34,099 bases of DNA from Sedimentisphaerales bacterium (GCA_028281535.1 JANQJS010000005.1:1-34099); one strand, 5' to 3'; counted from the first letter of the stretch, positions 1,371 through 31,575 are shown. Numbers and translations: made by a program. The notes: generated from the sequence alone by a model not told the origin.

Positions 1371-1395
1371 CTTGTAGTAATTTAAGGAAAGTATA

Positions 1396-3144: not shown

Positions 3145-3198
3145 CCGGCAGATGTCTAGTTGTCTGTGAGGGACCTGAGAAACTAAAGAGGTGATGAA

Positions 3199-4449: not shown

Positions 4450-4484
4450 GAAATTATCGCATTAAAATATTATGGAGAATTAAA

Positions 4485-5438: not shown

Positions 5439-5480
5439 TAGATTTATTATATAACAGATAAAAGTTTTAGGATATATCCA

Positions 5481-6131: not shown

Positions 6132-6170
6132 TTTATTAAGAGATCTTATTCTAAGGAGGAATATAGGAGA

Positions 6171-6884
6171 ATGAATTTGTTTAAAAGTATGAAAGTATAT
6201 TTGTGTTGCCTTTTTGTAATGTGTATTTCAATTAATAGTGCAGATGGTTTTCAAAATTGGGAAATCCAAGAGTTATATACCAATGTAGATGGTTCTATAC
6301 AATATGTCGAACTCTATACTAGTTTCTCTGTACAAGCATTTATAAATGGTAAGAGTATCAATTCAAGCTATGAAAGTGGTTTAAATAATTTTACGTTTTC
6401 GGGGAACGCACCATTTAATACGATTAATCGGCATTTGCTTATTGCGACTCAAGGCTTTGCTGATTTAGATGGTGCTCCTGTGCCAGATTATATCCTTGCT
6501 GATGATTTCCTTTTTATTCCAACAGAGAGTGGAGATCCTAATGGGGCAAGTGTAGATTTTCTTGGAGCAGATATGGTATCTTATTTGGAAATTCCTGTTG
6601 ATGGGTTTAACTCTCTGCACTTTGATATTGCTGGGAATTCTACCGAATCTGTTAACACGCCAACAAATTATAATGGCGATACTTTTACAATAATTCCTGC
6701 TTGTCTGTTTACTGCTCTTGCAGGTGATTTTAATAATGATTGTATGGTAGATATTTTAGACTATGAATTATTAGTAGATGGCTGGCTGGGTACCTATTAT
6801 ATGGACGATTTTGGCATTCTCTCAAACAGCTGGCTTGTTGACTGCCTGGCTACACCAGAGGATCCTTTATGTCTGGGGATGTAA
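6171..6884 (+). CDS. Secreted protein with dockerin-like C-terminus
   Basis: A 237-residue protein of unknown function. A signal peptide is clear (basic MNLFKSMK, hydrophobic core, cleavage likely near SADG at 23-26). The body begins WEIQELYTNVDGSIQYVELY (30-49), a pattern I recall from secreted proteins of this kind but cannot assign. Residues 185-206 contain GDFNNDCMVDILDYELLVDG followed by WL, a dockerin type I-like Ca2+ loop with Asp/Asn ligands, and a weaker second copy follows (MDDFGILSNSWL, 211-222). Cysteines 191, 224 and 233 could form a disulphide. It has a strong ribosome site (AAGGAGGA). It sits inside the pseudopilin cluster, so it may be a substrate or accessory of the machine; this is inference. 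Confidence 0.8.
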   Translation: MNLFKSMKVYLCCLFVMCISINSADGFQNWEIQELYTNVDGSIQYVELYTSFSVQAFINGKSINSSYESGLNNFTFSGNAPFNTINRHLLIATQGFADLDGAPVPDYILADDFLFIPTESGDPNGASVDFLGADMVSYLEIPVDGFNSLHFDIAGNSTESVNTPTNYNGDTFTIIPACLFTALAGDFNNDCMVDILDYELLVDGWLGTYYMDDFGILSNSWLVDCLATPEDPLCLGM

Positions 6885-6980
6885 TCTAGGTAATATTTCT
6901 GACGCTAATTTATTCTGCATCAAACCAGCTTTTTTGTTTGATCAGGGTGGGTAACTAATTTTACAAAAAGAGTTTATATG

Positions 6981-7013
6981 TATGTGGTCAATTATCAACC
7001 ACATACGTATAAT
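6981..7013 (+). promoter_or_regulatory. Putative promoter with inverted repeat, upstream of the GspH-like gene
   Basis: TGGTCA at 6985-6990 and TATAAT at 7008-7013 are 17 bp apart and match the promoters at 1343 and 10464. Here the -35 region also forms a perfect inverted repeat: TATGTGGT (6981-6988) and ACCACATA (6998-7005) around a 9-bp spacer. This could be an operator; the repeat is not kept in the other two copies. The 177-bp gap between 6884 and 7062 shows that the minor pseudopilin genes have their own transcription start. Confidence 0.6.
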
Positions 7014-7061
7014 CTTATAGTTCAAAAAACGAACGAGTAATTAGTTCAAAGGCGACTATAA

Positions 7062-7889
7062 ATGCTTAAATACCATAAAAAACGACGAAAATCAGGTGTT
7101 ACACTACTGGAATTGACGATCGTGATATCGATTATTGTGTTAGTGACCGCATTTTCTGTTCCAAATATAAGTGCAATGATGAAGACCCACAGAGTAAATT
7201 CTGCCAAAACCATGATTCGTACTTTTATTGGTAGAGCTCAGGCCCATGCTCAGCTTACAGGAAGATTAGCTGGCGTTCGGTTTCAATTTGATCGAGATGG
7301 GTGGGAAGATGGACGCCAATATATGGTTTTGATTGAAAAGCCAGTGGGTGTATTTACAGCAGAATTTAATGCGGTTGCTGATGAGAGGCCTATTGCACTA
7401 CCTGAAGGAATAGGGGTTATTTCAACGGTTTCGGATGATTTGGATAATGATTTTGATAACTATTACCAAACAGATAACAGTGGTATTCATGATGCCACTA
7501 CATTTTCTTTTGTGTTTGCCCCGTCCGGGCGTTTGGTATTTAGATTGGTTCGTTTGAAAAGTCGAAATGTATTGGGTCCTAATTTTGATCAGGTGATGAA
7601 TATTGAAATAAATGTCGATCAGTCAGGTCGGCCAAATAATATCACCAATATTCCAGTGAATTCCGGGCTGTTATATGATGATGGGGATCATCAAGTTTCT
7701 GGAAATTGGGTTGAGCCTGTGCCTTGGTGTCGACCAGAACCAAGCACTGGTGGATTTATTATTTATGAAGTAGAAAAAATGAAATCGATTGATAGTCCAC
7801 TATTGCGTTATGAACAGTATGTTGAACGAGATTTAAATGAACTTCTTGTTAATGCCTATACTGGTGAAATAATAGAAAGTGAGGACTAG
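7062..7889 (+). CDS. GspH-like minor pseudopilin
   Basis: A 275-residue prepilin-like protein. The leader is basic (MLKYHKKRRKSG, cleavage after G12) and the mature protein starts VTLLELTIVISIIVLV with Glu+5. The region AFSVPNISAMMKTHRVNSAK continues the helix and resembles GspH (AxPxl...R). The following segment, RLAGVRFQFD...YMVLIEKP and APSGRLVF, has the beta-strand character of the GspH C-terminal domain. It is the first gene after a separate promoter and begins the order H-I-J-K typical of type II secretion minor pseudopilins. The next start is only 2 bp beyond its stop. Confidence 0.82.
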   Translation: MLKYHKKRRKSGVTLLELTIVISIIVLVTAFSVPNISAMMKTHRVNSAKTMIRTFIGRAQAHAQLTGRLAGVRFQFDRDGWEDGRQYMVLIEKPVGVFTAEFNAVADERPIALPEGIGVISTVSDDLDNDFDNYYQTDNSGIHDATTFSFVFAPSGRLVFRLVRLKSRNVLGPNFDQVMNIEINVDQSGRPNNITNIPVNSGLLYDDGDHQVSGNWVEPVPWCRPEPSTGGFIIYEVEKMKSIDSPLLRYEQYVERDLNELLVNAYTGEIIESED

Positions 7890-7891
7890 TC

Positions 7892-9109
7892 ATGTCTAAG
7901 TCTAAACAAGTGGGTCTTTATTATTTTAAATCTCGAAATAAAATCAACGGTTTTTCACTGGTTGAAATTATGTTTTCTGTCTTAGTGCTAACGTTGGGTT
8001 TGATTTTTGTTGCGATACAGTTCCCTGTTGGGATTGCAAATTCACAAAGAATGAAAGATGCGACTTTAAATATAATCAATTCCAACAATGCTAGTATTCA
8101 GACAGAGCTGCAGTTTAAAGCTTTGCCAGCGCCAACGAGTTTTGTTGTGGATTATATTAATACAGGAGCATTGCTCATTGAAGATGGCAATGTGCATATG
8201 TTAATTAAACCTAATGTTGTAAATAACCCACCGAATAATACGAATAACAGGGACCCAATTGTATTGGATGATCCAGAAGATAATTTACTGCTAGGGCCAT
8301 TGTTGTCACAGGATTATAACATAATATCCGCACTTGGCTTTGCTCCGTTTATTACGACATTACCTGCTTTACCTACTGATCTTTTGTCAGGAGGTAGTTT
8401 AGGTAATATTGTATCACCGCCAGTGAGTGCAAGTGACTCAGACGTGTTGGAGTTAGCAAAGCTCCAGGCAATTCAGGATCGAGGGTTAACGATTAATGAA
8501 TTGATATTTGCCGTAGCGAAAAATAGAAAAGAAAATTGGTGTGCATTGTATCTAAGCAATACTTCGACGGTAAATAAATATCGATATTACTATTTCTCAT
8601 TAAAAAATACTAATAAAGGTTTGAGGTATATTGGGCAGCAGTTTAGCGCAGCGACTGGTGATCCAACACCTGATACTGCTATTAATCATCTGCGACATTT
8701 TCCTGTGCCATGGCGTATTGATTTAAACTTTTATGATACCGTTGGCAATACAGAAAGAAATTATATAGGTACAGGTACTCAGACAGTGCCTGAATTTACT
8801 GCTCCTGATACTTTTGAGCTAACAACAGCGGGTTTTTATGACAAAATAATAGTTGAAGATTCCATACTTATAGATGCTGATTTTAATCTTGGTCTTGGCT
8901 GGGTTAATAATGGCTATGTTTACAAAGTCAAAGAAGTTGTTCGAAAAGAAACCTCTGGTGTTGCCAAAGTGTTTGTTAAGTTAGATAGTCCTTTGCGAGA
9001 CAATTTAAATTTTATTTGGATATTTCCTCCTGCCTATGATATTGCACAAGGTGTGTTTTCCACACAGCAACCTGTAATTAATGTCGTGGAAAAAACTGTT
9101 CAATACTAA
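7892..9109 (+). CDS. GspI/PilV-like minor pseudopilin
   Basis: A 405-residue prepilin-like protein. The leader is long for the class (20 residues, MSKSKQVGLYYFKSRNKING), and cleavage would leave FSLVEIMFSVLVLTLGLIFV with Glu+5. That helix sequence resembles the GspI/PilV type (FSLvEvllAl.iL..gl). The rest, about 360 residues, is much larger than classical GspI and I recognise no domain in it. Start choice: ATG 2 bp after the GspH-like stop, with GAGGA in the preceding codons. Place in the order supports the GspI assignment more than the soluble part does. Confidence 0.75.
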   Translation: MSKSKQVGLYYFKSRNKINGFSLVEIMFSVLVLTLGLIFVAIQFPVGIANSQRMKDATLNIINSNNASIQTELQFKALPAPTSFVVDYINTGALLIEDGNVHMLIKPNVVNNPPNNTNNRDPIVLDDPEDNLLLGPLLSQDYNIISALGFAPFITTLPALPTDLLSGGSLGNIVSPPVSASDSDVLELAKLQAIQDRGLTINELIFAVAKNRKENWCALYLSNTSTVNKYRYYYFSLKNTNKGLRYIGQQFSAATGDPTPDTAINHLRHFPVPWRIDLNFYDTVGNTERNYIGTGTQTVPEFTAPDTFELTTAGFYDKIIVEDSILIDADFNLGLGWVNNGYVYKVKEVVRKETSGVAKVFVKLDSPLRDNLNFIWIFPPAYDIAQGVFSTQQPVINVVEKTVQY

Positions 9110-9119
9110 TTCCTTATTA

Positions 9120-10436
9120 ATGATGAATATAAAACTTAGAAAAACTGGCGTAACTTTAGTCGAAATGGTTGTGGCTCTTGCGATCATGCTTGGCATGCTA
9201 TTAGCTGCCAGCCTGGTGTTTAAAAGTTCAACTCAAGCTGCCGGTAAAGCGATGGCTAGAAATGATATGATGCAACAGTTGTTTGTGATGAAGCGACAAT
9301 TAGATAGCGATTTTATCGGGTTTGAAAGAAACTCTCCATTTGCAGTTATTTTTGAAAGTTCCGTTGCTGATAGTAATAGCACTGCAACGTTTTACGATAC
9401 GGATCCATCTGTTGGTACAGATCTATTTGAACGTAATGATCGCATTGTGTTTTATTCTAATGGATCATTTGATACTTGGGGTGATACAATTGCTCCTGGG
9501 AGTATTGGACGAATATTTTATGGCCAAACCAGTGATAATGAAGCTTTGACAGTGGGAGATCTTTCGCGATTAGATACGTATGAAAACTTTTCGGCAGCTT
9601 ATAATGTTTATCCAAGACGTGTATTAAGTCGCAGGATGAAAGTATTTTCAGTTGATACATCAAGTTTTAATTTTGTGAGTAATATAAATGCATTGAATGC
9701 CGTTGATAGTGCACTTTATGATTTGAATAGTATTTTTGTTCCACAATTACCACAGAATATTTCTGTATTTCCCGCTGGTGCTTCAGATTGGAGCGATCCT
9801 GCTGTTGTTGATTTTCAAGAATACTATAATTACTTTTTTGATGAAAACCAAAATATATCATTTATTCGACGGCCAAATATTTTTAATTCGGAAGTGAATT
9901 TTGGAAATCGTGCTGTTCAACGTTTATTTATGCTCCCTGATGTTACCAATTTTAAAATTGAGTTATGGTTTCCTGGTGCACGTGATTGGTTTCCAAATGT
10001 TAATGATTTAAGCTTAATCCAAACGATTAATGGTTTAAATGGCGAAGTTCCAACAGATGCCGTTTCTATGGTTAATTATAGCAATTTAGAAGAATACAAA
10101 TTTGGATTTTATTGGAATGCCCCATTTGATGCTACTTTTGATCAAGGTGGTACAACTAAGAGGAAAAACTTCTTTACTCCAAATATTTTAAATGGAACGG
10201 GGTATGATACAGGTCGAATCGAATGGCGAAGTGAGACTGCTATTACTGAATTAGTTAATGCAACGGGTGTCAATGGCATTGATTTAGATGGCGACGGGAC
10301 GGAAGAAACTTTCACTTTGGGGTGGACTTCCAGTTGGCCGTTGGCTATACGATTTACATTTACCTTACATGATAAAGATCGTAGACATTTTCCAGAGGGT
10401 GAAACGTTTAGTTATATACTTAACTTGCCACAATAA
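9120..10436 (+). CDS. GspJ-like minor pseudopilin
   Basis: A prepilin-like protein of 438 residues from the ATG at 9120. An in-frame ATG at 9081 would give 13 more residues and overlap the previous gene by 29 bp. I prefer 9120 or the adjacent 9123 because the leader MMNIKLRKTG then has the usual length and charge; neither start has a strong ribosome site, so translational coupling is likely. Cleavage after G10 gives VTLVEMVVALAIMLGMLLAA with Glu+5. The helix followed by a run like KAMARNDMMQQLFVMKRQLD resembles GspJ, where an Arg-rich helix ('R..a...l..dl') follows. The large soluble domain has no motif I recognise. Confidence 0.78.
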   Translation: MMNIKLRKTGVTLVEMVVALAIMLGMLLAASLVFKSSTQAAGKAMARNDMMQQLFVMKRQLDSDFIGFERNSPFAVIFESSVADSNSTATFYDTDPSVGTDLFERNDRIVFYSNGSFDTWGDTIAPGSIGRIFYGQTSDNEALTVGDLSRLDTYENFSAAYNVYPRRVLSRRMKVFSVDTSSFNFVSNINALNAVDSALYDLNSIFVPQLPQNISVFPAGASDWSDPAVVDFQEYYNYFFDENQNISFIRRPNIFNSEVNFGNRAVQRLFMLPDVTNFKIELWFPGARDWFPNVNDLSLIQTINGLNGEVPTDAVSMVNYSNLEEYKFGFYWNAPFDATFDQGGTTKRKNFFTPNILNGTGYDTGRIEWRSETAITELVNATGVNGIDLDGDGTEETFTLGWTSSWPLAIRFTFTLHDKDRRHFPEGETFSYILNLPQ

Positions 10437-15236: not shown

Positions 15237-18200
15237 TTAAGTAATTTTAATTTTGAATTTCCAGCTACCATAGTGGATGTAGTCTGCCCAATCGATGGTG
15301 GCCATTGTTGGATGATTGTCCTTGAGTTTAAAAACGGCCTTTCTTCCTTTCACAACCGCGTCACCGATAGTGGCGCCCTGCATTAGTTTTGTGTAAAAAG
15401 TTTCGCCGAATAGTAACGCTGCGGCATCGCCTACAGGCCAGTAAGTACCAATGAAATTTGCTACTCCGCCGCGGAGCATCGATTCAGCTATACTCGCATT
15501 TGTCTCGAGCATGTCAGCTGAGTTTACACTTATAGATTTTACTTTCTTGCCTGCCACTAATTTTCGGACACGGCCTGATTCACAAGCATTAAAGGATATG
15601 AGTGAAGGTAACGCTGTGATATCTGAAAGGTGTTTACCGCGGAGCACCTGATTGTTGGCACAGATTAAGCCGCAGGAAGCGCGATCATCTGGATCGAAAT
15701 ATGCGTGCCCTGCAAAGTGAACTATGTCGTAATTCTCGGATTCAAAAGCCATTTGTATAGCAGGGAGGGTTGCCTTGTCGCCTCGTAATTCGACTAGATC
15801 TGTTGATGGGAATTTCGCCATGATTGCCTTCATGCGATCACCTTCTTGTTCTGCGCCTATCAAGTCTTTTGTTGGATTGGTAATTAGCAGTATCCTGAGT
15901 TTCTCATCACGTTGGCGTTGGTTCATCCACCGTGCCATAGACATGTCGGATAAGTCGAGCTTACGACTTAGACCGGACAATGCCAATGCTCTATTTTTGA
16001 TATAAATTGTTTCCCAGGGGATTCGTGAGGCTTGTAGGTCATGAATGATGACCAGATGCCGCTCACTTCTCCGGGAAAGAATCTGGTGGATTGTTTCGGG
16101 CAAAACCATCTTAGCCAGGGTATTGCCGAATTGACAAAGATCGTCTGGTTTGTCATTGATTAACAGCTTGAGATGGTTATTCAGTGTGCTGGGATTGATC
16201 TCAGCAATGTCCGTGATAATTGTGGCTTTACCATCGGCAGTTAGTAATGAACATTGTAAGGTCTTTTCGTTGAGAGTTCTTACTATGAGGTAATCAGGAT
16301 CCTTTTCGAGTGTGAGGTCTCGTGGTATTGTTCTGATTGGTGTGTGTAGCGTGGACAGAGGAATCTCATCGAGCGTGACTTCGACTTCATCGAACAAAGG
16401 TGTCATTGCCAAGTGGAGAATCTCCTGTTTTAGTAAGCGATATTGTTCGCTGTCGTATTCGCACAGTGTAATAGTGTGGACTCGCTGATTGTTTTCGACA
16501 TCTTTCATTCCGCGAAAGAATCCAGTGATTATCATCTTTAGAGCTGATCCCATCTTGATACCTGATCCGGTACCGAAAATGACAGTTGCAAAATCTTCCA
16601 CGTTTGTCATTGCCATCGAACGTGCTATATTTTCCGCGACGAGTTCAAGGCTGTTGAGAGTAAAGGTATCATAGCTTCCCAGGCCGGCTAGGATGACCAT
16701 ATCTGTGGAGAGCGCATGTCGTCCAGTTGGAACGATGAATAGTTCGCCTCGATCTCCACTAAACATACGCCTTTCAGTCATCAGACCGATTGCATTATTG
16801 AGGTGTTCGTTGATGGCGGCGGCAGGACCGGTAGGCGTTACATCTTTAAAAACACCAAGGACGATGGCTCGAGAATTGAAAGCGGCGATATCACCGTTTG
16901 CAATTTGGATATTGAGGCGATGCTGGCGTCGTCGACCGACGATGATCGACTCTTGACTAAATTCCTGGGTGATCTGGGTCTGAGGGGCGGTAATGCTTTT
17001 AGGTAATCCCAACGGTGCGGCAAACTCCTGTATAAGAGAGCGTACCTCAGCTTGGCTGAGCCGTTCGGCAGATCGCCCCTGGAGTGGATCTACCCTAAAT
17101 TCAGACTCGGGCACAATCTTTGTGCTACTTCGATGGGGTGTCCAGCTTGTGGTAAGTTCATCAGTCTGGCCGGTTTCGATCAGGTCGATTACGGACCGTA
17201 TCACGCGAGTATTATTTGGCAGGCTGCCATGTTTTTCCTCGACGTAATATGTATCTACACCGGGGAGCCTGGCGAAATCAAGTGGTACCGTTCCGTCTCC
17301 TGCTAGGCCATATGTATATTCGTAGTCATCTCCATCACGGCGGCAAGATATAATAGTTTCCTGATTGATCCCAGCGATAAGTTTGAAGCGTGAATCCCCC
17401 GGGGCTAGTTGAGATTCAAGATCTGCGGCATCTTTTAATAGGTTTGGACGGACACGTGGTGAAGAGGGCCAGTTTTTGGCATCAAAAAAGTCAATATCGG
17501 GAAAGACCGACCGAGCCGGAAGCATTTCACATAATCCGGGGAAACTGTTGAATATATTGGAGCTTAGTTCTTCCGGATTATGTTTCTGGTCGAGCCTGGC
17601 AAGCGTTTGAATAATGGAGTGAGTGCCTCGTAAGGCAAGCACCGGAGAGAAAGAGCCGTAGTTGGGTGTCCCCATCATCAGGAGTTGGCGGACCAAATGA
17701 CCTTGGTTTTTCTCCTCTAGTATTTTGATCGCGGCACGGCTGACTAGGCCTCCCATACTATGGGCGACAAGGTGGATCCCACGTTTATTGTGCTTGGATT
17801 GAGTAGATTCTTTGATGATTTTATTGGCTAGATCCGATCCTGCATGCCCAATCGGTTTGCGCCAATCGAAGGGATAGAAACTGACGTCATATCCTGCTAT
17901 TCGCAAGTTCAGCTTTAGTCGGAGATAGGCAAATAGAATAACGCCAATTGGTATAATTTTTGAGTTTTCAGATTTTATCGCGAGTTTTTTCAGGTTGCCA
18001 GTGATAACATCAATGAAGTCTAACCAAATACAATCATCGAAGAAAAATTTGCGTTTTTTCCCTAGTTTAGAACCCATGATTCCGGGTAGTAGCAACACTC
18101 TAGCCTTCATCGCGCGAGTACGTTGAGAATCTCTAGCCAAGGTAGTCAGTTCTTCATATTGTGCTTCGCCAAAGTAGGCTTCGAGTAAATCGCGATCTTC

Positions 18201-18410
18201 ACCACTAATCAGGGCCTGCTCGACGCTTTCATCCCTGAGATCGAAGGCGGAACCAGAAATATCACCTCGACTCACGATTCCGAATGGACTGGTGGAGGGG
18301 ACATCTGCAGCTAGATCATTAAGATTAGCAGAACGGGATCGGGAGGAGCGATTTCTTTTGACACTGTCTTGTTTTTTGCTTGATTGTCGAATTGTTTTTT
18401 TCTTAGCCAT
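15237..18410 (-). CDS. LCAT-type hydrolase / M17_N-like / CHAT protease fusion
   Basis: A 1057-residue, three-part protein. (1) After a basic, Ser/Lys-rich N-terminus, residues 103-415 look like the lecithin:cholesterol acyltransferase branch of alpha/beta hydrolases: LLLPGIMGSKL (106-116), nucleophile S218 in AHSMGG, acid D372 in GDGTVPL, and H394 in KHGSL. (2) Residues 498-640 resemble the N-terminal macro-like domain of leucyl aminopeptidase (M17_N): GDIAAFNSRAIVLGVF, GDRGELFIVPTG, ILAGLGSYDTFTLNSL; no M17 catalytic domain follows. (3) Residues 785-1057 are a CHAT caspase-like protease with H902 in DIVHFAGHA and C943 in ISFNACESG, plus GTYWPVGD (988-995). All catalytic residues appear intact. 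The SIR2-family gene lies 100 bp upstream on the same strand. No signal peptide is visible, so a cytoplasmic role is expected. An abortive-infection effector is my inference. Confidence 0.88.
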   Translation of the reverse strand: MAKKKTIRQSSKKQDSVKRNRSSRSRSANLNDLAADVPSTSPFGIVSRGDISGSAFDLRDESVEQALISGEDRDLLEAYFGEAQYEELTTLARDSQRTRAMKARVLLLPGIMGSKLGKKRKFFFDDCIWLDFIDVITGNLKKLAIKSENSKIIPIGVILFAYLRLKLNLRIAGYDVSFYPFDWRKPIGHAGSDLANKIIKESTQSKHNKRGIHLVAHSMGGLVSRAAIKILEEKNQGHLVRQLLMMGTPNYGSFSPVLALRGTHSIIQTLARLDQKHNPEELSSNIFNSFPGLCEMLPARSVFPDIDFFDAKNWPSSPRVRPNLLKDAADLESQLAPGDSRFKLIAGINQETIISCRRDGDDYEYTYGLAGDGTVPLDFARLPGVDTYYVEEKHGSLPNNTRVIRSVIDLIETGQTDELTTSWTPHRSSTKIVPESEFRVDPLQGRSAERLSQAEVRSLIQEFAAPLGLPKSITAPQTQITQEFSQESIIVGRRRQHRLNIQIANGDIAAFNSRAIVLGVFKDVTPTGPAAAINEHLNNAIGLMTERRMFSGDRGELFIVPTGRHALSTDMVILAGLGSYDTFTLNSLELVAENIARSMAMTNVEDFATVIFGTGSGIKMGSALKMIITGFFRGMKDVENNQRVHTITLCEYDSEQYRLLKQEILHLAMTPLFDEVEVTLDEIPLSTLHTPIRTIPRDLTLEKDPDYLIVRTLNEKTLQCSLLTADGKATIITDIAEINPSTLNNHLKLLINDKPDDLCQFGNTLAKMVLPETIHQILSRRSERHLVIIHDLQASRIPWETIYIKNRALALSGLSRKLDLSDMSMARWMNQRQRDEKLRILLITNPTKDLIGAEQEGDRMKAIMAKFPSTDLVELRGDKATLPAIQMAFESENYDIVHFAGHAYFDPDDRASCGLICANNQVLRGKHLSDITALPSLISFNACESGRVRKLVAGKKVKSISVNSADMLETNASIAESMLRGGVANFIGTYWPVGDAAALLFGETFYTKLMQGATIGDAVVKGRKAVFKLKDNHPTMATIDWADYIHYGSWKFKIKIT

Positions 18411-18510
18411 TTTTTTATCCTTTTTATTGATTCGAATCTCACCGGGGTACTAAGGAGTTGGAGTCATCAGTTGCCCAGCTAGTTAGAATTAAAGCAATAC
18501 ACGGTATAAA

Positions 18511-19638
18511 TTATCGTGTCAATTCATGAAGGATATCGGGTATTTCATGGTGATCGTCGTACCAGATGCAGTAAATACCAAGTTGCTCAAGAACTCGGTA
18601 TTGCTCAATTTCATCAACCTTCTGTACTGCTCTGAGGATTCCCAGAATCTCATTAACGTATTGTGGGCCCTTAACCATTGGAGGTGGTATAGAACGCGTC
18701 TGCTTCCGAGAAGTTTTACGGCCAACGACTTGGCTTTTCGCTCGCGACTTAACACCGCTGCTCTGGAAACGCTCAATGTACTCGCGGGCTTTTTGATCGA
18801 TCGCATCGACTTCGCGTTGGCTAGTTTCGTAACGTTTAGGCCGCATCATTAAAGCATAGTTACATGTTTTACCGGGTGTACGCATCACAGCGTCAAGCAA
18901 TCGACGCATATTTCTATCTGAGAGAGATAGACCTACCATTAAGCCGACTGTAGTGCTAAAGCAGTTGATTTGGACCAGATTAGACCATGAGTAGGGGGCT
19001 GACGCTGCTAAGTTATACTGATCTTCAGTAAACACAATTTCACTCCCGCCGGAACCCGTTCCTTCAGCAGGTACGAAACCATGCACGTGATAGATTGGCA
19101 ACAAATTTTCTGGCAGGGATGTATTATTCCAGATGGGTTGGTATTGTTTATTGTTGACCACATGTTCCAGGAGGTAGTCATAATTGTAGGTGACCACAGC
19201 GTTTAGGCCTTGGTTGGAGTTGGTCTTTTTACATAACTTAGCTACGGCCTTAAGTGTACTGTTACCTCTCCTTATCATATGTGGATCTGGGATTTCGATC
19301 CCTTCTTCATTAATCCAGGGATATAACGTGCTACGCAGCTGCTCAAGGAAATCATTTTGGTCTGGATAAAGATTCCGCAAACGACGTGCTGTGATATCTA
19401 GAGTTTCGCCAGATTGCTTGAGGTGATACTCAGCGATAGCGTATAGGTAGTTCGGGAAAGGCCTCCAACCATCGAGTTCTTTTCTGCTGATCGCATCGTA
19501 ATACATCGCAGCCACAAGTTGCTCCCATGTTGGCAGACCGCTGGCAACAGAGACACCAGCGCCCAAGTATAGCGTGAGCTGTTTCTTGCTCCACGCTTTT
19601 CTCATTTCATGTATTGCTTGCTCACGTATATTCGTCAT
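18511..19638 (-). CDS. SIR2-family NAD-binding protein
   Basis: A 375-residue protein of the SIR2_2-like type found in many anti-phage systems. Motifs in order: LTLYLGAGVSVASGLPTW (21-38; NAD-binding GAGVS), TYNYDYLLE (150-158; Asn and Asp of the nicotinamide pocket), YHVHGF (183-188; likely catalytic H186), FTEDQYN (203-209), and GLSLSDRNMRRLL (236-248). The zinc-ribbon cysteines of true deacetylase sirtuins are absent, so NAD hydrolysis or ADP-ribose signalling is more likely than deacetylation. The C-terminal third has a basic linker (about 297-317) and an unknown tail. There is no transmembrane segment. It is the first gene of a two-gene unit with the CHAT fusion; the ribosome site is weak (GGTG). 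It was called from motifs only. Confidence 0.88.
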   Translation of the reverse strand: MTNIREQAIHEMRKAWSKKQLTLYLGAGVSVASGLPTWEQLVAAMYYDAISRKELDGWRPFPNYLYAIAEYHLKQSGETLDITARRLRNLYPDQNDFLEQLRSTLYPWINEEGIEIPDPHMIRRGNSTLKAVAKLCKKTNSNQGLNAVVTYNYDYLLEHVVNNKQYQPIWNNTSLPENLLPIYHVHGFVPAEGTGSGGSEIVFTEDQYNLAASAPYSWSNLVQINCFSTTVGLMVGLSLSDRNMRRLLDAVMRTPGKTCNYALMMRPKRYETSQREVDAIDQKAREYIERFQSSGVKSRAKSQVVGRKTSRKQTRSIPPPMVKGPQYVNEILGILRAVQKVDEIEQYRVLEQLGIYCIWYDDHHEIPDILHELTR

Positions 19639-20346: not shown

Positions 20347-20641
20347 ATGTTATTTGTTTCGCGGATCTGGTTTCGGCTAACCAAAACCAAATATAAGAAG
20401 GCCATACTACTGATATTTGTCTATGCGTCAAGAGGAAATCACTAAAAAAATGTGTTTTAAAGCAATAATTACCATAAGTTTAGATAAAAAACCGTTTCGG
20501 TGGGGGATTTTGCTTTTTTCAGCCTTGTTGAGCCAGAATCCGCTTGCAAAATGGGCGAACCTGACCTACATTTTTTGCGTAAGAATTGGTACGTTCAGTT
20601 AATAATTTTCAATCTAAATGATAATTGGAGAGGTGATTTTC

Positions 20642-21115
20642 ATGCAAAAATCTAAGTTAATCTTCACTGTTTTGGCCCTGTTTTCGCTCGGAATTGTGGG
20701 GTCCGCTTTATTGACAAATCAACCAAGTGTACACGCATCTGAAGGTGATAAAAAAGCCGATGGCAAAAAATCGCTTCATGACAATATGGAAGAAATGGGA
20801 TCGTACTTTAAGAAGGTTCGTAAGGGGGTTGCAGACCCTGCCAAAAATAAAGCGACATTAGAAGCACTAGCCGTCGTTCAAGCCCATTCAATCGATGCCA
20901 AAGATGAAAGGCCTCATATTGTTTCACATGCCGGCCCGGGCCAACGCAAGGATTTGGTCAAAGCCTATCGCAAGAGCATGATCGAAATGAACATAGAACT
21001 ATTGAAATTGGAATTACTGATTCTGGATGGTAAAAATGAAGAAGCCGTCGCAAAGACCAAAGAAATTGGTAAGCTGATCAAAAAAGGTCATAACAAATTC
21101 CAGGATGATCATTAG
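20642..21115 (+). CDS. Exported cytochrome b562-like protein
   Basis: A 157-residue protein from the ATG at 20642, chosen because GGAGAGG lies 8 nt upstream; an earlier in-frame ATG (20618) has no such site. A signal peptide is clear (MQKSKLIF, hydrophobic core, cleavage near VHASEG). The mature part is an all-helical domain with the cytochrome b562 pattern: KSLHDNMEEMG near its start (M49) and KKGHNKFQ at the end (H150), the positions of the Met and His haem ligands in cytochrome b562. The mid-helix YRKSMIEMNIELLKLELL also fits. There is no CXXCH motif, so any haem would be non-covalent. A similar gene follows 1 bp later. Electron transfer or haem binding in the periplasm is likely but unproven; apo four-helix proteins of this fold also exist. 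Confidence 0.78.
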   Translation: MQKSKLIFTVLALFSLGIVGSALLTNQPSVHASEGDKKADGKKSLHDNMEEMGSYFKKVRKGVADPAKNKATLEALAVVQAHSIDAKDERPHIVSHAGPGQRKDLVKAYRKSMIEMNIELLKLELLILDGKNEEAVAKTKEIGKLIKKGHNKFQDDH

Positions 21116-21116
21116 A

Positions 21117-21587
21117 ATGAAGCGGTTTTTTTTACCTAGTATCCTAGTGCTTTTATTTGCTTTTTTATGTGTGCTAACATCGCAGGTGCCTGCCCAAACA
21201 GGGGTGCTTGCTGAAGATGGTACGCCGAGAAAATCTATCAAATCACATATGCGAAATATGAAATATGGTTTACGCAAATGTTTTCTTGCTTTAGAGGCTG
21301 AGTCTCAAGATCAAAAAGTTATGCTAAAACAATTATATTTTGTGCAAAGATCGGCAATTTTGGCTAAGAATTATAGCCCACGAAAAGTGAATCGGCTTGC
21401 TGAAGAAAAAAGAGAGGTTTTTTTAAAGGGTTATCGTAAAGCTATGATTCAATTCAATTTGGAATTATTAGAATTAGAAAAACTGATCCTGGAAGAAAAC
21501 TATTCAGAAGCAAAGGTGAAATATAAAAACATTAAAGCATTGATGGAGCCTGAACATAAAAAATATCGCTTTGGTAGCGACTATTAA
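21117..21587 (+). CDS. Exported cytochrome b562-like protein, second copy
   Basis: A 156-residue paralogue of the previous gene, starting at the ATG at 21117 (1 bp after the preceding stop; a start at 21105 would add four residues and overlap). A signal peptide is evident: MKRFFLPS, a hydrophobic core, and cleavage near VPAQTG. The domain keeps M45 (KSHMRNM) and H147 (EPEHKKYR) where cytochrome b562 has its Met and His ligands, and it repeats YRKAMIQFNLELLELEKLIL of the first copy. The two copies diverge in the middle. The very tight spacing implies coupled translation and possibly a heterodimer. A terminator follows at 21614. Confidence 0.78.
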   Translation: MKRFFLPSILVLLFAFLCVLTSQVPAQTGVLAEDGTPRKSIKSHMRNMKYGLRKCFLALEAESQDQKVMLKQLYFVQRSAILAKNYSPRKVNRLAEEKREVFLKGYRKAMIQFNLELLELEKLILEENYSEAKVKYKNIKALMEPEHKKYRFGSDY

Positions 21588-25049: not shown

Positions 25050-27866
25050 TTATATATCATTCAACTCTTGTTGTATCTTTCTTTGCTCTAGCTTGTTCAT
25101 TTCTAATCTCGGTTGTATTACAGCTTCCCTCTTATGAAGAGATTCAATCTCAGTTTGATTTCGTTTAAACGTTTCATCTATTTGACTATGATGGAAGATT
25201 GAAACAATATGATTCATGATGACCTTTGCATCTTCCTCCTCGATATCTACTAGAACTAATTCTATCAGATTTGACTGATCGAGATGATGCGCTATGAAAT
25301 GAGATCGAATGTCTAGGATTGGGTTTTGATTGTTTTTATACCATTGGGTTTGTTGTAGTTCTTTTTGCCCTAGTACTTTATTCAAAAAAGCCGTGCTGAG
25401 TAATAATGTTTGCGCACTTTTCAATTCACGTTCGATAAAATCAACATTGTTTTGCTGGGATATATCAACGCGATATTTTAGTGTTAAAGATAACCTGGGT
25501 TGTAAATGATCAGAAATTTCATAAGAAGGTTTGGCAATTCGCTCAAATTTGAACCCCTGTGGGTTATTTCTGGAGATAGCTGAGAGCTTATTGATCTTTA
25601 GTTCGAGCTCAACTAACTCTGATTCTAATCTTTGTTGAGTTTGTTTTAATTCTTCTGTTTGATCGGCTAATTCTGAGGTCTGGTTGAGTTTTATAGTTAT
25701 TTTTTTAATTTCTGAATCAATACCTGATAAATAGTCATTTCCTTGGACATCTATTATGGTCATTTTATACCCTTTGATTTGATTATCCAATTCATTTTGT
25801 AGATGCTCAATCTCATCGTTTAATATCTCCACATCTATGATGTTCACTGATGCGGGTAATTTATTAAGTTGTTTAAGCTCTTTCTTTTTTGATTCAAGTT
25901 CCTTTGTGTAATACTCAATATTACCTTTGTATGAATATTGATATCTAATTTGTTCATTAATATATTCTGTACGTTTAGTTTGCCAGGTGTTTAATTCATT
26001 CAAAAGAGAGCGTATTTTCCAATGATCGTTTGTGGTTTGTTGATGGTAAGTAACCGGTGTTACTTTTGCTAAACTGGCGGCAGGAATGTCTGCTGAGCTC
26101 GTAAATAAAAACTCATTTTCAGACTCTTGTTCAATCTTCGATTTACTGTTTTCGGTTGTGCTGGATGAATCTGATTGTTGTACTATAACATTTTCAAACT
26201 GATAAATTCTATCACCAGGTAAAATGGATAGCGAATCATATTTTTTAATTTTTTCGTTATGAATCGCAAGGGGGGGGATAAATCCTGCTTCTGGGTCATA
26301 ATAACCTAAGCGAATCAAATTAAATTTCGAGTGGACATCTATCGACGTACCGGCAGCACCAACAATTTGACGTAAAGTAAAAATTTGTCCTTTCGATGGT
26401 TTAAATGGATTGAAGCCTGGCCTTTGGGGATTTTTGAAAATAAATGTGTCTGGTTTTGATACACGTGACCAAGTTTTATTGATAGAATGATCTTTGGTGT
26501 CACTAAACTGCAATTTGTTATCATCTATGTTTGAGATAAAGCCGGTATAAATTTTATTCTCACCATTTTCAGGTTGGTGGTTAGTAATAGTTAAAGTGCC
26601 ATCTTCGAGTTGCCATGTTCCTTTTCGGATCTGATTTACGTTTGATGCGTAAACCCATGTATGGTTTGAAAGAAAATGATGATAATATTCTGTTAAAAAT
26701 GATGATCCCCTCCATGTTCCAACTAGTTTTTCCTCCATGCTATTTAATGTTTCAGCTTTGGCCATAGGCAATAATACGATGGCAGCTAACATAATAGTGA
26801 CAGCACCTGCAATTCCTAATTTCATCGATTTGGGAATAGGCCGATGTGTCATATGCTTAATCCTTTGGGCCAGTGCTTTTTTCGATTCAGCAACACCCAT
26901 AAGTCGTAAGGATAATGCTGGGCTCGCTAAATTCATCTCAGCGATTTCGATTAATGTGTTGCGATAAGTAGGGGCCTGATCACCAAGAACAACCTGGACG
27001 CCTTCGTCAACGGCTTGTTCCCGAATATTGCGAAGGATTGCGTTGGAGATCCAAACCAGCGGGTGAAAGAAATAGACGATCTGGATGAGAGTTTGCAGGA
27101 AATTAATCGGTAGATCGTAGCGTTTAATATGCAATAGCTCATGAGTCAGTATGGCTACCTTTTGTTCTCGACTTAATTTATTGAGTAATGGTAGGGGCAG
27201 TAAAATCGTAGGATTATGCAGGCCGCAAACCGCAGGCGAGGATAGCTTAGAAGATATGCGAATTTTGATTCTTTGGGGTGTCAATTTAAGCGTTTGGCAA
27301 CATTGATCCAGTAGACTCTGCCATGAGTCATCTGCAAGTTGAGACTGACAGATCAAAGTATTAATGTGTTTTGCACGATTCACAAGGAGAATGAGCAGAG
27401 TAACTATGCCAAAAACCCACGTTATGAATATAATAGACTGCCAAGACAATGAAATGGAGGCTACTTGGCTTATGTTTTCTATGAGAGGTTCATTTAGTAT
27501 ACGCTCAGCGTGATTTAATGTCGCTGCGGTTGTCGAAGTATGAAGTGCTTGAGGAGAAATCGAATTACCTGGATCTTTCGTGTCAAAGTAAGCTGGAGAT
27601 TCAACCGTTGGGTGTTGCAATGCATCTCCTAACCAATGACCGATACTGATGGGGGACGTTATGTGCACAGGCAAAATCAACTTAACTAAAACCAATAGCC
27701 AAACAAAATATCGAACAATGGCTCGCGTGGTTCGGCATAGGACTAGATCAATCAAAAAGATGACACCTATTAATATCGAGGATTGAAGAAGCATATTCCA
27801 CATGTAAGTAATAAAAGTACTACTAAATTGATTTATTAGCAATATGTTCTGATTTAGCCAGTCCAT
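25050..27866 (-). CDS. M56 (BlaR1-like) sensor peptidase with SLBB/Wzz-like ectodomain
   Basis: A 938-residue membrane protein with a good ribosome site (AAGGAGAT). TM segments frame a BlaR1/MecR1-type zinc protease: HELLH at 242-246, E283 and D287 in REQAVDEG as expected third ligand and partner, and SSPAVCGLHNPTILLP (209-224). A TM segment at about 347-368 leads to the outer-face region. There a lipocalin-like domain (EEKLVGTWRGSSF...GTWQLEDGTLTITN) is followed by a segment like SLBB domains (FTLRQIVGAAGTSID...SILPGDRIYQFE), long coiled coils, and a Wzz-like part (LLLSTAFLNKVLGQKELQQT and SNLIELVLVDIEEEDAKVI). In BlaR1 homologues, signal binding outside activates the protease, which cleaves the BlaI-type repressor. 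The usual penicillin-binding sensor is absent. The SLBB/Wzz resemblance is by eye. Confidence 0.85.
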   Translation of the reverse strand: MDWLNQNILLINQFSSTFITYMWNMLLQSSILIGVIFLIDLVLCRTTRAIVRYFVWLLVLVKLILPVHITSPISIGHWLGDALQHPTVESPAYFDTKDPGNSISPQALHTSTTAATLNHAERILNEPLIENISQVASISLSWQSIIFITWVFGIVTLLILLVNRAKHINTLICQSQLADDSWQSLLDQCCQTLKLTPQRIKIRISSKLSSPAVCGLHNPTILLPLPLLNKLSREQKVAILTHELLHIKRYDLPINFLQTLIQIVYFFHPLVWISNAILRNIREQAVDEGVQVVLGDQAPTYRNTLIEIAEMNLASPALSLRLMGVAESKKALAQRIKHMTHRPIPKSMKLGIAGAVTIMLAAIVLLPMAKAETLNSMEEKLVGTWRGSSFLTEYYHHFLSNHTWVYASNVNQIRKGTWQLEDGTLTITNHQPENGENKIYTGFISNIDDNKLQFSDTKDHSINKTWSRVSKPDTFIFKNPQRPGFNPFKPSKGQIFTLRQIVGAAGTSIDVHSKFNLIRLGYYDPEAGFIPPLAIHNEKIKKYDSLSILPGDRIYQFENVIVQQSDSSSTTENSKSKIEQESENEFLFTSSADIPAASLAKVTPVTYHQQTTNDHWKIRSLLNELNTWQTKRTEYINEQIRYQYSYKGNIEYYTKELESKKKELKQLNKLPASVNIIDVEILNDEIEHLQNELDNQIKGYKMTIIDVQGNDYLSGIDSEIKKITIKLNQTSELADQTEELKQTQQRLESELVELELKINKLSAISRNNPQGFKFERIAKPSYEISDHLQPRLSLTLKYRVDISQQNNVDFIERELKSAQTLLLSTAFLNKVLGQKELQQTQWYKNNQNPILDIRSHFIAHHLDQSNLIELVLVDIEEEDAKVIMNHIVSIFHHSQIDETFKRNQTEIESLHKREAVIQPRLEMNKLEQRKIQQELNDI

Positions 27867-27974
27867 TATAAATCTCCTTTTCTTTTGACCGTTTTACGCA
27901 TTGAACCTATTCGGTTTTGATTAATATCTGCTATGCTGCCTACTCGCTCTCAAGTCATATAATTTATTAATTGA

Positions 27975-29282
27975 TTATTTGTTTAATAATTGATCTTTTT
28001 GAATTTGATAAATAGCCAATTTTCTTTCATGTGCTTTTATAAACCTTAGAGTTGAGTTTATCTGATTTACAAGGTCCTTTTTGCGTTCAGAAATTTTTTC
28101 CTCAATCATTGCTGAGACAATTATATCTAAAATCTTTTTGGTTTCATTTTCTGAGGTATGTTTCAAGGATAAAGTTAACGTCATGTTATTAGAATCTATG
28201 TTGAGCATTTTTTTGATAAGTTTTTCATGATTCTTTTTGTTTTTAGTCCAATTCAAAGACTGGAGATTACTTCTCTTTAGCAAGAGATTTAAAAAACGCT
28301 CACTTTTAAGATAGTTTTTATGATACTTGATGATGTAGTCATTGCGTTTTTGATGGGTTGAATATGAATTAATTGTGATGTCTGTTTGTGCTAAATATAA
28401 GTTTTTTTGGGACTTTATTGGCTTGAGTATTATGCCATCTGCGTCACGCGTGTATAATGAATGTAAGTTTTCCCTGTCTCGAATATAGTCATTTAATCGT
28501 TTTTGATTATTTCGTAATTTATTATTCGTTTCTTTTATTTGTTCTTCCAATAACTTCAGTTCTTCTGAGTGATCCAGGGGGGGCTCTTTAGACTCTGGTA
28601 ATAGGGATACATATAGATAGTCCTTTGGTTTTACAAAAATTTTATGTGCCAGAGATTCATCTTTGAGGTTGAGATTGTAAGGTTGAAAGGTGCCAGAATT
28701 TGATTGATGATAGTTTACTATCGTGACTTGAGGTGATCTCTCTTCAATATTAATCTCTGCCAAACTTAAAGCTTGATGGAGTGATAGCTTCTTATGAGGA
28801 TCTAACGGATAGGAATTTCCTAGAAAATTTTTATCATCATCTATAACGACAGTATATCCAGTAGGATGGATGCGGCGAAAGCGGTAAGATTTTTTGTCAC
28901 CAGTTGTACTAATAATCGTTTTTGAATGTTGACCGATGTCTTCAATGATAAAGGTATCCGTTTTATTTTCACTAGGTGTAATTCGTGTAAGGATATTACC
29001 CTTGAGTTGCCAGGTTCCCTGCTTTTCTGGACCAAGGTTTGCTTTAAAGCTCCAAGTGTTATCTTCGTGATAAGTATAATTATATAACACGAGAAATGAG
29101 CTTTTTTCCCAAGTACCTAGGATTTTTTTCTCTATGTTATTTAATGCTTCAGCGTTGGCGACAGGTAAAAATGTGTTCGTATTGATCATTAGGTAGATCG
29201 CAACGACCAAGCTCCATTGGGCTGTTATGGAAATAGGGCAGTTAATCATATGCCTTCTTCGATGGGGAAATAGTCTGTTCAT
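27975..29282 (-). CDS. Protease-less paralogue of the M56 ectodomain
   Basis: A 435-residue protein from the ATG at 29282, chosen because AGGAG lies 7 nt upstream; an upstream in-frame start would run into blaI. It has a basic N-terminus (MNRLFPHRRRHMINC), one TM or signal segment (about 20-40, ending VANAEA), and then the same layout as the C-terminal half of the M56 neighbour: NNIEKKILGTWEKSSF and GTWQLKGNILTRITP, an SLBB-like LSLHQALSLAEINIEE...FVKPKDYLYVSL, and a coiled coil plus Wzz-like LKSERFLNLLLKRSNLQSL. The M56 protease part is absent. Thus it could be a co-receptor or a decoy of the sensor. It lies between the repressor and the sensor gene, which favours one operon. The family is not known to me. 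Confidence 0.8.
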   Translation of the reverse strand: MNRLFPHRRRHMINCPISITAQWSLVVAIYLMINTNTFLPVANAEALNNIEKKILGTWEKSSFLVLYNYTYHEDNTWSFKANLGPEKQGTWQLKGNILTRITPSENKTDTFIIEDIGQHSKTIISTTGDKKSYRFRRIHPTGYTVVIDDDKNFLGNSYPLDPHKKLSLHQALSLAEINIEERSPQVTIVNYHQSNSGTFQPYNLNLKDESLAHKIFVKPKDYLYVSLLPESKEPPLDHSEELKLLEEQIKETNNKLRNNQKRLNDYIRDRENLHSLYTRDADGIILKPIKSQKNLYLAQTDITINSYSTHQKRNDYIIKYHKNYLKSERFLNLLLKRSNLQSLNWTKNKKNHEKLIKKMLNIDSNNMTLTLSLKHTSENETKKILDIIVSAMIEEKISERKKDLVNQINSTLRFIKAHERKLAIYQIQKDQLLNK

Positions 29283-29286
29283 TGAA

Positions 29287-29312
29287 AATCTCCTATATTT
29301 TTGACCGTTTAT
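29287..29312 (-). repeat. Leader sequence shared with the M56 gene
   Basis: The 26 nt before this gene carry AAACGGTC, then 8 nt, then AGGAGATT on the minus strand; the 27871-27894 region before the M56 gene carries the same two blocks at the same spacing. This is probably the trace of a duplication, or a shared translation or promoter signal. Confidence 0.5.
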
Positions 29313-29322
29313 CTGTATTGAC

Positions 29323-29715
29323 TTACTTGGGCTTTGATTTGTCAACCAGCTCTTTTAGTTGCTGCAATTCTTTTTTAGACCATTGCTCATTTTCGAGCAA
29401 AAATTGCATCATGGGAGTAAGGGCTCCATCGAAAGCTCGTTTAATCGTCTTTAAAATTTCACTTCGCTTAGCTTGGGACTCTGTAATATTGGCACTAAAT
29501 AGCTGTAAGTTTCGGATTTTACTAATTTTGAGTATCCCTTTTTTGACCATCCGATCCATCGTCGTTTTGACCGTGCTGTAAGCCCAATTTCGTTGTTGCT
29601 GTAGAGCCTCCTGGACGTTGCCAGCGGCGCAGGGTTGCTGCTGCCAGACAACTTTTAAAATATCCCATTCCGCATCAGTAATTTCAGAGTTTTCTTTTTT
29701 CTTAGATTCCGACAT
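29323..29715 (-). CDS. BlaI/MecI-family repressor
   Basis: A protein of 130 residues from the ATG at 29715 (a GTG two codons upstream, at 29721, is an alternative; GAGGTG serves as ribosome site). It matches the BlaI/MecI/CopY winged-helix family: EITDAEWDILKVVW at the start, the recognition region NWAYSTVKTTMDRMVKKGIL, then FSANITESQAKRSEILKTIKRAF and the C-terminal dimerisation helix. In the family such repressors are cleaved by the partner M56 protease, between the DNA-binding and dimerisation parts. Here the partner would be the M56 gene two places downstream. A palindromic operator lies 34 bp upstream, consistent with autoregulation. Confidence 0.92.
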   Translation of the reverse strand: MSESKKKENSEITDAEWDILKVVWQQQPCAAGNVQEALQQQRNWAYSTVKTTMDRMVKKGILKISKIRNLQLFSANITESQAKRSEILKTIKRAFDGALTPMMQFLLENEQWSKKELQQLKELVDKSKPK

Positions 29716-29748
29716 ATGCACCTCGAGTATAATTTATGTCTGTAGTAT

Positions 29749-29770
29749 ATATTCGACAGGTGTCGAATAT
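29749..29770 (-). promoter_or_regulatory. 22-bp palindrome, probable BlaI-type operator
   Basis: A perfect inverted repeat: ATATTCGACA, a GG spacer, then TGTCGAATAT. It starts 34 bp before the repressor ATG and overlaps the likely promoter spacer (TTGCAT upstream, TATACT downstream on the minus strand). Known BlaI/MecI operators have the core TACA...TGTA; this one has GACA...TGTC. Next to it is TGTAGTA (29741-29747), the half-site of classical BlaI operators. The divergent gene at 29889 may share the control. Confidence 0.7.
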
Positions 29771-29888: not shown

Positions 29889-30623
29889 GTGAAGTTATTC
29901 AGAAAACAAAAGAAGCTTACCTATCTTGGACTAATACTGGCAGGGGTAGTGAGTTCAAGCTATTTTGCCATAGCTCAGGATGAGACAAAAGAAGAAAAAC
30001 CTGCGATCGAGTTTAAATCTGATGATGATAAAATCAGTTATATGATCGGTACACAAATTGGTCAAGGTATGAGAATGCAGGGTGAGGATCTTGATTTAGA
30101 TATTGTTTTTAAAGCCATTAAAACAGTTCTAGATGGAAAAACACCTGCCATGGATGAGGCTCAGCAGCAGAAGTTGGTTAAAGAGTATAGCGATATGATG
30201 GCCAAGAAAATGGAAGAAAAAGCGAATGCCGCTACCAAAGAAAATCGCGAAAAAAGCCTGGCCTTTCTAGAAGAGAACAAGAAGAAAGAAGGGGTTATTG
30301 AGTTGCCAAGTGGATTACAATACAAAGTAATCAAAGAGGGGGATGGTGCAACACCAACGAAAACAGATAGAGTTCTTGCACATTATCGAGGCACCCTTAT
30401 TGATGGCACCGAATTTGACAGTTCCTACAAACGCGGCGAACCTTTAGAAATTGGCGTTACTCAAGTGATCAAAGGTTGGACGGAAGCTTTATTGATGATG
30501 AAAGTTGGAGATAAATGGGAGCTATATATTCATCCAGATTTGGCTTATGGAGCTCGTGATAGCAGAACGATTCCTGGCAATTCAGCTTTAATATTTGAAA
30601 TGGAACTTATTGGCATTAAATAA
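29889..30623 (+). CDS. Exported FKBP-type prolyl isomerase (FkpA/Mip-like)
   Basis: A 244-residue protein starting at GTG with AAGGAGAA upstream. A signal peptide spans about 1-30 (basic start, YLGLILAGVVSSSYFAIAQ). An FKBP_N-type helical dimerisation domain follows (45-110; DDKISYMIGTQIGQGM and LDIVFKAIKTVLDGK). The C-terminal FKBP domain (141-244) has Y166, F176-D177, VIKGW (193-197), YIHPDLAYG (213-221) and IPGNSALIFEMELI, all standard active-site positions. It would fold proline-containing proteins in the periplasm. A cyclophilin with a similar N-terminal domain follows 52 bp later, so they probably form one operon and a chaperone pair. Length and layout match FkpA/Mip. Confidence 0.93.
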   Translation: MKLFRKQKKLTYLGLILAGVVSSSYFAIAQDETKEEKPAIEFKSDDDKISYMIGTQIGQGMRMQGEDLDLDIVFKAIKTVLDGKTPAMDEAQQQKLVKEYSDMMAKKMEEKANAATKENREKSLAFLEENKKKEGVIELPSGLQYKVIKEGDGATPTKTDRVLAHYRGTLIDGTEFDSSYKRGEPLEIGVTQVIKGWTEALLMMKVGDKWELYIHPDLAYGARDSRTIPGNSALIFEMELIGIK

Positions 30624-30675
30624 GGCCTGGATAAACGAATAAAATTAAATAATCCATTTTGGAGTTAAAAATAAA

Positions 30676-31575
30676 ATGAGAAAGTATTTTACAATTGTAT
30701 TAATGATAATGGTTGCGTCACAAGCGTCTTTGATGGCTCAAACGGACAGCAAAAAAGAGCAAGCAAAGTCTGATGCGAAACCAGAAATTGAATTTAAAAC
30801 AGATAGAGAAAAATATAGTTATGCGATAGGCCTCCGCTACGCTCAATTTCTCAAAACAATGGGATTAGAAATTAATCTAGACTTGTTACGTAGAGGGATA
30901 GAGGATTCATTAGCTGGTAAAGAGCCTGTCATTTCACGTGCTGAGCAGCAAAGCTTACTCCAGGCATTTCAAAAGAAAAGACAGGCCAAAGCTAGAGAAG
31001 AAATGGAAAAAAAGGAAAAAGAGAAATTAGGTGACAATGTTTGGAAAACCAAGCTGACGAAGCCTGAGATGATGACGTTTGACAAGAATAAAGATTACTT
31101 CTGGCTTTTAGATACCAACAAGGGATTAATTAAAATTAAACTCTGGCCAGATATTGCTCCGATGCACGTGACCAGTACCATCTACTTAACCAAGAAAACC
31201 TTTTATGATGGTTTGACCTTCCACCGGATTATTGAAGGATTCATGGCCCAAGGTGGCTGTCCTTATGGTAATGGCGGAGGTACCCCTGGATACCAGTATG
31301 ATGGCGAATATGATCCAAACGTCAAACATGACCGTCCTTATTTATTGAGTATGGCGAACACTGGCAGACCAACCACGGATGGTAGCCAATTCTTTTTGAC
31401 CTTTTCACCTCAACCAGGTTTAGATGGCAAACACACGATTTTTGGTGAAATCGTAGAAGGTTTTGATGTGATGACCAAATTAGAAGCAGCTGCAGGCCCC
31501 AAAAGCTCAGGTGTCCCAACTAAAGAAAAAATCATCATCAATAAAGCCACCATTGAAGAAGCGGCTAAAAAATAA
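30676..31575 (+). CDS. Cyclophilin-type prolyl isomerase with FKBP_N-like domain
   Basis: A 299-residue exported protein with a signal peptide (1-21, ending SLMAQ) and a GGAG site upstream. Residues 38-105 repeat the FKBP_N domain of the previous gene: KPEIEFKTDREKYSYAIGLR here against KPAIEFKSDDDKISYMIGTQ there. A charged Lys/Glu linker follows, and then a cyclophilin domain (about 134-298). Active-site motifs are present: FHRII (182-186, R184), QGGCPYGNGGGTPGY (192-206), and DGSQFFLTF (235-243). The domain normally found on FKBPs is thus joined to a cyclophilin, which is unusual. It may allow dimerisation, possibly with the FKBP neighbour. A terminator follows. Confidence 0.92.
   Translation: MRKYFTIVLMIMVASQASLMAQTDSKKEQAKSDAKPEIEFKTDREKYSYAIGLRYAQFLKTMGLEINLDLLRRGIEDSLAGKEPVISRAEQQSLLQAFQKKRQAKAREEMEKKEKEKLGDNVWKTKLTKPEMMTFDKNKDYFWLLDTNKGLIKIKLWPDIAPMHVTSTIYLTKKTFYDGLTFHRIIEGFMAQGGCPYGNGGGTPGYQYDGEYDPNVKHDRPYLLSMANTGRPTTDGSQFFLTFSPQPGLDGKHTIFGEIVEGFDVMTKLEAAAGPKSSGVPTKEKIIINKATIEEAAKK

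Follow-up and report, generated by a model that had tools for sequence, protein, structure and literature searches.

A BlaI-M56 operon of a Sedimentisphaerales bacterium with a Wzz domain at the sensor position and a second, secreted-type copy of the ectodomain

BlaR1-type switches have, to our knowledge, been studied almost only as beta-lactam sensors, the sensor of BlaR1 itself being a copy of a penicillin-binding enzyme. An operon at 25050-29769 (- strand) of the window, by which we mean the whole stretch of 34,099 nucleotides of Sedimentisphaerales DNA analysed here, raises the question of what such a switch might detect when other domains stand in the place of this sensor. In the order of transcription, the operon consists of a palindrome, the repressor gene blaI, a gene termed here P0002 and the M56 protease gene P0001, the product of which is composed of an M56 core, a last transmembrane (TM) helix, a lipocalin-like barrel, an SLBB-like segment, a coiled coil and a Wzz domain. 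A sequence-only reading of this DNA had proposed a BlaI and M56 pair at 25050-29715, and a Pfam search confirmed both genes; P0002, which lies between the two and carries a second copy of the ectodomain, had gone unmentioned.

The predicted M56 core is complete and BlaR1-like, with every catalytic residue kept. It comprises residues 1-337 of P0001 (26856..27866, - strand), of which residues 22-337 match PF05569 (E 4.2e-42, 144.8 bits against a gathering cut-off of 31), and H242-E243-L-L-H246, D251, E283xxxD287, Y301 and R335 are invariant across an order-wide alignment of 32 M56 proteins. In type and spacing, these residues equal the catalytic set of Staphylococcus aureus BlaR1, namely His201-Glu-x-x-His205, Asp210, Glu242-x-x-x-Asp246, Tyr261 and Arg294 (PMC9834060). 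The hydrophobic stretches at residues 18-51, 46-76, 135-172, 260-278 (short) and 346-374 are consistent with four TM helices plus a re-entrant segment, and 26754..26831 (- strand) encodes the last helix (about residues 346-366) and the motif LPMAKA (366-371), which is the conserved junction. As had been proposed earlier, the penicillin-binding sensor is absent, in that Pfam and NCBIfam gave no match to a penicillin-binding, transpeptidase or beta-lactamase domain anywhere in P0001.

The winged-helix repressor gene blaI (29323..29715, - strand; PF03965, E 1.1e-28) probably starts with the ATG at 29715, which has GAGG ahead of it. The TPMMQ-F of its product (Q106-F107 when numbered from an upstream GTG) aligns with the position at which S. 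aureus BlaI is cleaved by BlaR1, between Asn101 and Phe102 (PMC9834060), and P1' of this putative site is Phe in 29 of the 36 BlaI homologues aligned. A candidate BlaI/CopY-type operator, TATTCGACA-CC-TGTCGAATA (29750..29769), precedes the blaI ATG by about 35 bp and is a perfect inverted repeat flanked by a -35-like TTGCAT and a -10-like TATATA/TATACT. The 16-mer core of the operator occurs a single time without mismatch in the 4.4-Mb genome, and sites resembling CTCTACAnnTGTAGAGTA occur in relatives about 30 bp ahead of their own BlaI genes; more generally, of 34 relatives and paralogues, 20 have ACAnnTGT at most 120 bp before BlaI (shuffles: mean 1.3, maximum 7, n=1000). Since the operator is unique in the genome and equivalent sites precede BlaI in the relatives, autorepression of the blaI-P0002-M56 operon is most likely. 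Those weaker genomic matches that were examined either fall within genes or are not followed by a gene start, and no near-match in the genome is located upstream of export genes; as such, a control of export genes by BlaI was rejected. Divergent from blaI are FKBP-type and cyclophilin-type peptidyl-prolyl isomerase genes (29889-31575, + strand), which have the candidate operator in the common intergenic region and could possibly be controlled by it; an FKBP gene beside BlaI was not found in the relatives.

The ectodomain, residues 372-938 of P0001, has no significant match in Pfam, and a sequence search of the PDB returned nothing convincing. Its first part, at about residues 372-470 (26457..26753, - strand), was confirmed through its modelled fold as a lipocalin-like barrel, as the sequence-only reading had anticipated: over model residues 1-100 (mean pLDDT about 78), AlphaFold2 places eight antiparallel strands and one helix, a fold for which VIA-align finds its best PDB match in 3hty (Z 11.7 over 89 residues) and further lipocalin-like folds with Z down to 10, and PF13648 gives a sub-threshold match (E 0.0014, 19.9 of 22.4 bits). 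An SLBB-like region had also been proposed, and here the results are divided. At about residues 493-558 (26193..26390, - strand), P0001 has the SLBB-like pattern TLRQIVGAAG...LPGDRIY, and hhalign against an OPX SLBB profile gives 76% and an end-to-end score of 27.6, as compared with a maximum of 15.4 in 300 column shuffles; however, no SLBB match (PF10531-type) was obtained in P0001 by HMM, including an HMM built on 44 SLBB rows taken from proteins of relatives, and the AlphaFold2 model is of low confidence over this segment. Because the stretch was picked by eye, we grade the support for an SLBB-like segment as moderate.

The C-terminal part of the ectodomain begins with a coiled coil at about residues 620-780 (25527..26009, - strand), modelled by AlphaFold2 as helices with a pLDDT of mostly 85-95, and ends with the periplasmic domain of a Wzz protein or polysaccharide co-polymerase (PCP) at about residues 782-938 (25053..25523, - strand). 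The presence of this Wzz domain, which had likewise been suspected, is well supported. Residues 805-936 score 50.1 bits with a profile of 14 PCP-type proteins from the order, which gave 7.9 bits for the best of 2000 shuffles and -1.8 for the reversed sequence, and a real PCP of the same genome, left out of the profile, scores 43.7 bits. The hhalign comparison gives 97.4%, and the domain is below detection with Pfam's own models. In the structural comparison of the coiled-coil and Wzz model, Foldseek returned mostly generic coiled coils, and the PCP KpsE (8tsi_F) matched model residues 170-283 (Z 8.2, 102 residues, 2.8 A), a predicted likeness that is weak alone and agrees with the sequence evidence. 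In PCPs, the Wzz domain lies between two TM helices, and PCP-2a proteins have a kinase as well. In P0001, there is no hydrophobic stretch after residue 374, so the PCP TM helices are absent, and the C-terminus (residue 938) falls within a long helix, with no PCP kinase. A circular permutation of the PCP domain, with the coiled coil before the Wzz core, was also considered, and is not claimed because neither a doubled PCP profile nor one restricted to the C-terminal PCP segment rose above shuffles.

When a profile of P0001 and P0002 was searched against 161 genomes of the order, it matched 16 places outside the own genome, the majority of which belong to proteins of about 730-765 aa that combine a Wzz domain with a kinase-like second half, and a class-wide search of 397 genomes yielded more proteins of this kind. 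Outside the own genome, the matches are PCP-type proteins or Wzz-like proteins without M56, and a Wzz-M56 fusion was found nowhere else in the 161 genomes of the order or the 397 of the class, the arrangement thus being known from one genome. In two relatives (L103, 1051-2031, - strand; L108, 1222-2112, - strand), small kinase-less Wzz-like proteins are encoded beside a carbon-nitrogen-hydrolase-like gene, with no M56 in the stretch examined.

The second copy of the sensor, P0002 (27975..29282, - strand), is a protein of 435 aa with a P0001-type ectodomain and no protease, in which a signal peptide is followed by lipocalin-like and SLBB-like parts, a short coiled coil and a Wzz-like part. Its likely start is the ATG at 29282, which has AGGAG ahead of it in an ORF that opens at 29345, and the predicted signal peptide ends in a signal-peptidase-like FLPVANA/EA (cleavage at the slash). 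The alignment of P0002 with P0001 (E 3e-18 to 5e-18 for the ectodomain) spans the last TM helix through the ectodomain, with the barrel as the best-conserved part, and the order PCP profile scores 25.2 bits at P0002 residues 340-431 (reading from 29345). In addition, the leader region of P0002 (29271..29339, - strand) is a copy of 27855-27922 at the start of the M56 gene, the 70 bp around the two starts being 75.7% identical (0 of 1000 shuffles as high), which we regard as the trace of a tandem duplication. The simplest history would be a tandem duplication of the M56 gene with subsequent loss of the protease core, whereby the former last TM helix of the duplicated gene would have become the signal peptide of P0002. 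The lipocalin-like, SLBB-like and Wzz parts have been kept in both proteins, which have only about a quarter of residues in common, and this suggests that these parts are in use. No relatives of P0002 were found in 12 other genomes of the family.

The exchange of the ectodomain itself is no peculiarity of this operon, as BlaI-M56 pairs with unrelated ectodomains are common in this order. The own genome contains seven such pairs, i.e. six further M56 genes, with beta-helix, CarboxypepD_reg, redoxin or TPR ectodomains in the paralogues, and a scan of the genome contigs gave only M56-core matches. The M56 cores of relatives are about 40-47% identical to P0001 and are followed by ectodomains unrelated in sequence, which contain Clp_N in L046, CarboxypepD_reg, laminin G, a weak SLBB and SecDF_P1_head in L047 (G008:C306, 2967 aa), a secretin in L048 (G048:C105), Clp_N and redoxin in L049, and SecDF_P1_head in L050 (G028:C179). 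The largest M56 fusion found is a 3606-aa open frame (L062 3150-13967, G042:C84) with an M56 core, Clp_N, HEAT, laminin G and redoxin. Similarity among the relatives ends directly after LPMAxA; an LPM-type motif is present in 27 of 35 relatives and paralogues, and the -3/-1 rule of signal peptidase is satisfied in 21. LPMAxA thus appears to be a fixed, signal-peptidase-like junction for module exchange after the last TM helix. The equivalent linker of S. aureus BlaR1 is cleaved at Gly331/Gln332 by the signal peptidase SpsB, a cleavage thought to serve turnover (PMC9834060). Overall, the pairs of the order (L046, L047, L048 and L050) resemble P0001 in the core, in the BlaI gene directly upstream, in the LPMAxA junction and, for most of them, in the type of operator, but differ from it in their unrelated ectodomains, and none was found with a second, protease-less copy. 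The earlier impression of a new layout agrees with the surveys of 161 and 397 genomes and with the open-access literature, in which no M56 or BlaR1 protein bearing Wzz or SLBB was found, but what is new is the way in which known parts are combined, namely Wzz/SLBB-like domains with M56.

Among known systems, the operon is closest in its parts to BlaR1-BlaI and MecR1-MecI of staphylococci and Bacillus licheniformis, with which it has in common the BlaI repressor, the M56 gluzincin catalytic residues, the TM layout with re-entrant segment, the x-F at the BlaI cleavage position, the ACAnnTGT palindrome before blaI and the signal-peptidase-like site after the last TM helix. However, P0001 is without the C-terminal penicillin-binding (class D beta-lactamase-like) SxxK domain, and in contrast to BlaR1-BlaI, the operon contains no beta-lactamase or PBP gene and encodes an additional, secreted copy of the sensor between its repressor and protease genes. 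Judged from its sequence, P0001 is therefore a variant of the BlaR1-type switch that stands outside the beta-lactam-sensing BlaR1 family, as the defining sensor is absent. With PCPs of the Wzc/GumC/Wzz type, P0001 shares the periplasmic Wzz domain and the coiled coil, but neither the PCP TM helices nor the tyrosine kinase, and the domain order differs in that the coiled coil comes first. Its moderately supported SLBB-like segment recalls Wza-type OPX export proteins, the Poly_export domain and outer-membrane part of which it lacks.

Given that BlaR1-like cores are joined to unrelated ectodomains at LPMAxA in the relatives, we favour a proteolytic switch of the BlaR1 type in which the sensor has been exchanged, the most likely target of which would be a polysaccharide-export machine, its polymer or a ligand of the barrel, and to this reading as a whole we assign a probability of roughly 0.45. 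BlaI dimers on the palindrome would hold the blaI-P0002-M56 operon low until a target is gained or lost by the ectodomain and the change is relayed via the last TM helix, upon which the activated protease would cut BlaI at Q-F and derepress the operon. The target would most probably be an envelope PCP/OPX export complex, its polymer, or a ligand in the lipocalin-like barrel. By analogy to the BlaR1 sensor, which copies a penicillin-binding enzyme, the Wzz part might be a copy of the machine part to which it docks. P0002, as a secreted and protease-less protein, could tune or terminate the signal in the role of a soluble competitor or partner, and the ectodomain of P0001 may be released through a signal-peptidase cut at LPMAKA/E, as in BlaR1.

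The stimulus is the weakest step of this mechanism, and polysaccharide export is the best single guess for it because of the Wzz domain. That P0001 senses polysaccharide or its export machine is plausible: the own genome encodes three real PCPs, two of which adjoin an SLBB export gene, and so possesses a machine open to such surveillance. Wzc contacts Wza through its helical arm in the Wza-Wzc machine, and the polymer is handled by a membrane-proximal domain (PMC12881504); a copy of Wzz could hence in principle bind either. The idea of a polysaccharide monitor, which the sequence-only reading had put forward, is a reasonable deduction from the Wzz domain but gains no direct support, as the perfect operator is found only at the own operon and export genes are absent from the 34-kb window. 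As the operator is absent near export genes, the output may be limited to the blaI-P0002-M56 operon itself. Furthermore, the relatives' ectodomains with Clp_N, redoxin and HEAT have no link to polysaccharide, which indicates that a borrowed domain need not name the stimulus.

A serious rival, which we regard as a real if tentative possibility, is that the sensor is unrelated to polysaccharide, the Wzz and SLBB-like parts being shuffled-in scaffold and the signal, be it a lipid, some small hydrophobic molecule or general envelope stress, being detected by the barrel as ligand site or by the coiled coil. The highly varied mosaics that make up the ectodomains of close relatives would be in line with this, as would the better conservation of the barrel between P0001 and P0002 and the lack of an operator at export genes; against it speaks that Wzz has been kept in both copies although about 75% of positions differ, so that it is probably used. 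It seems unlikely that the ectodomain is instead the output, in the sense that the operon is induced and a lipocalin/Wzz protein is shed (P0001) or secreted (P0002) to modify polysaccharide export or the periplasm. The conserved LPMAxA junction, the secreted copy P0002 and the restriction of the perfect operator to the blaI-P0002-M56 operon would suit such a role, yet the equivalent cleavage of BlaR1 is thought to serve turnover (PMC9834060) and the M56 core would need another sensor. An ordinary beta-lactam sensor with an overlooked penicillin-binding domain is highly improbable. The scores of the M56 core with blaR1_generic (130 bits) and MecR1 (63 bits) would speak for it, but they are far below the family cut-offs, the matches stop near residue 380, no transpeptidase or beta-lactamase match exists anywhere and the ectodomain is mostly accounted for by other domains.

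With the preferred reading of a BlaR1-type switch with a swapped sensor, the Wzz domain at the sensor position and the secreted second copy offer a testable case of such a switch rewired to other envelope signals, and of modular sensor exchange at one constant position behind the last membrane helix. Here we speculate, doubtful as this generalisation is, that the M56 switches of the order might be machine monitors, each watching its envelope machine of origin by mimicry of a periplasmic part (Wzz/SLBB, SecDF P1 head, secretin) that is attached to the conserved protease core at the fixed junction, with P0002 as a dedicated secreted antagonist.

Elsewhere in the window, type II secretion / type IV pilus ATPases, an F protein and a prepilin-like protein are encoded at 182-10436 (+ strand), followed by five ORFs without Pfam match. 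At 15237-19638 (- strand), a SIR2-domain protein with weak ThsA/SIR2 PADLOC matches adjoins a 1057-aa protein with lipase-like and CHAT protease domains, and the two could be a defence pair. Two cytochrome b562-like genes, adjacent and overlapping, are located at 20618-21587 (+ strand).
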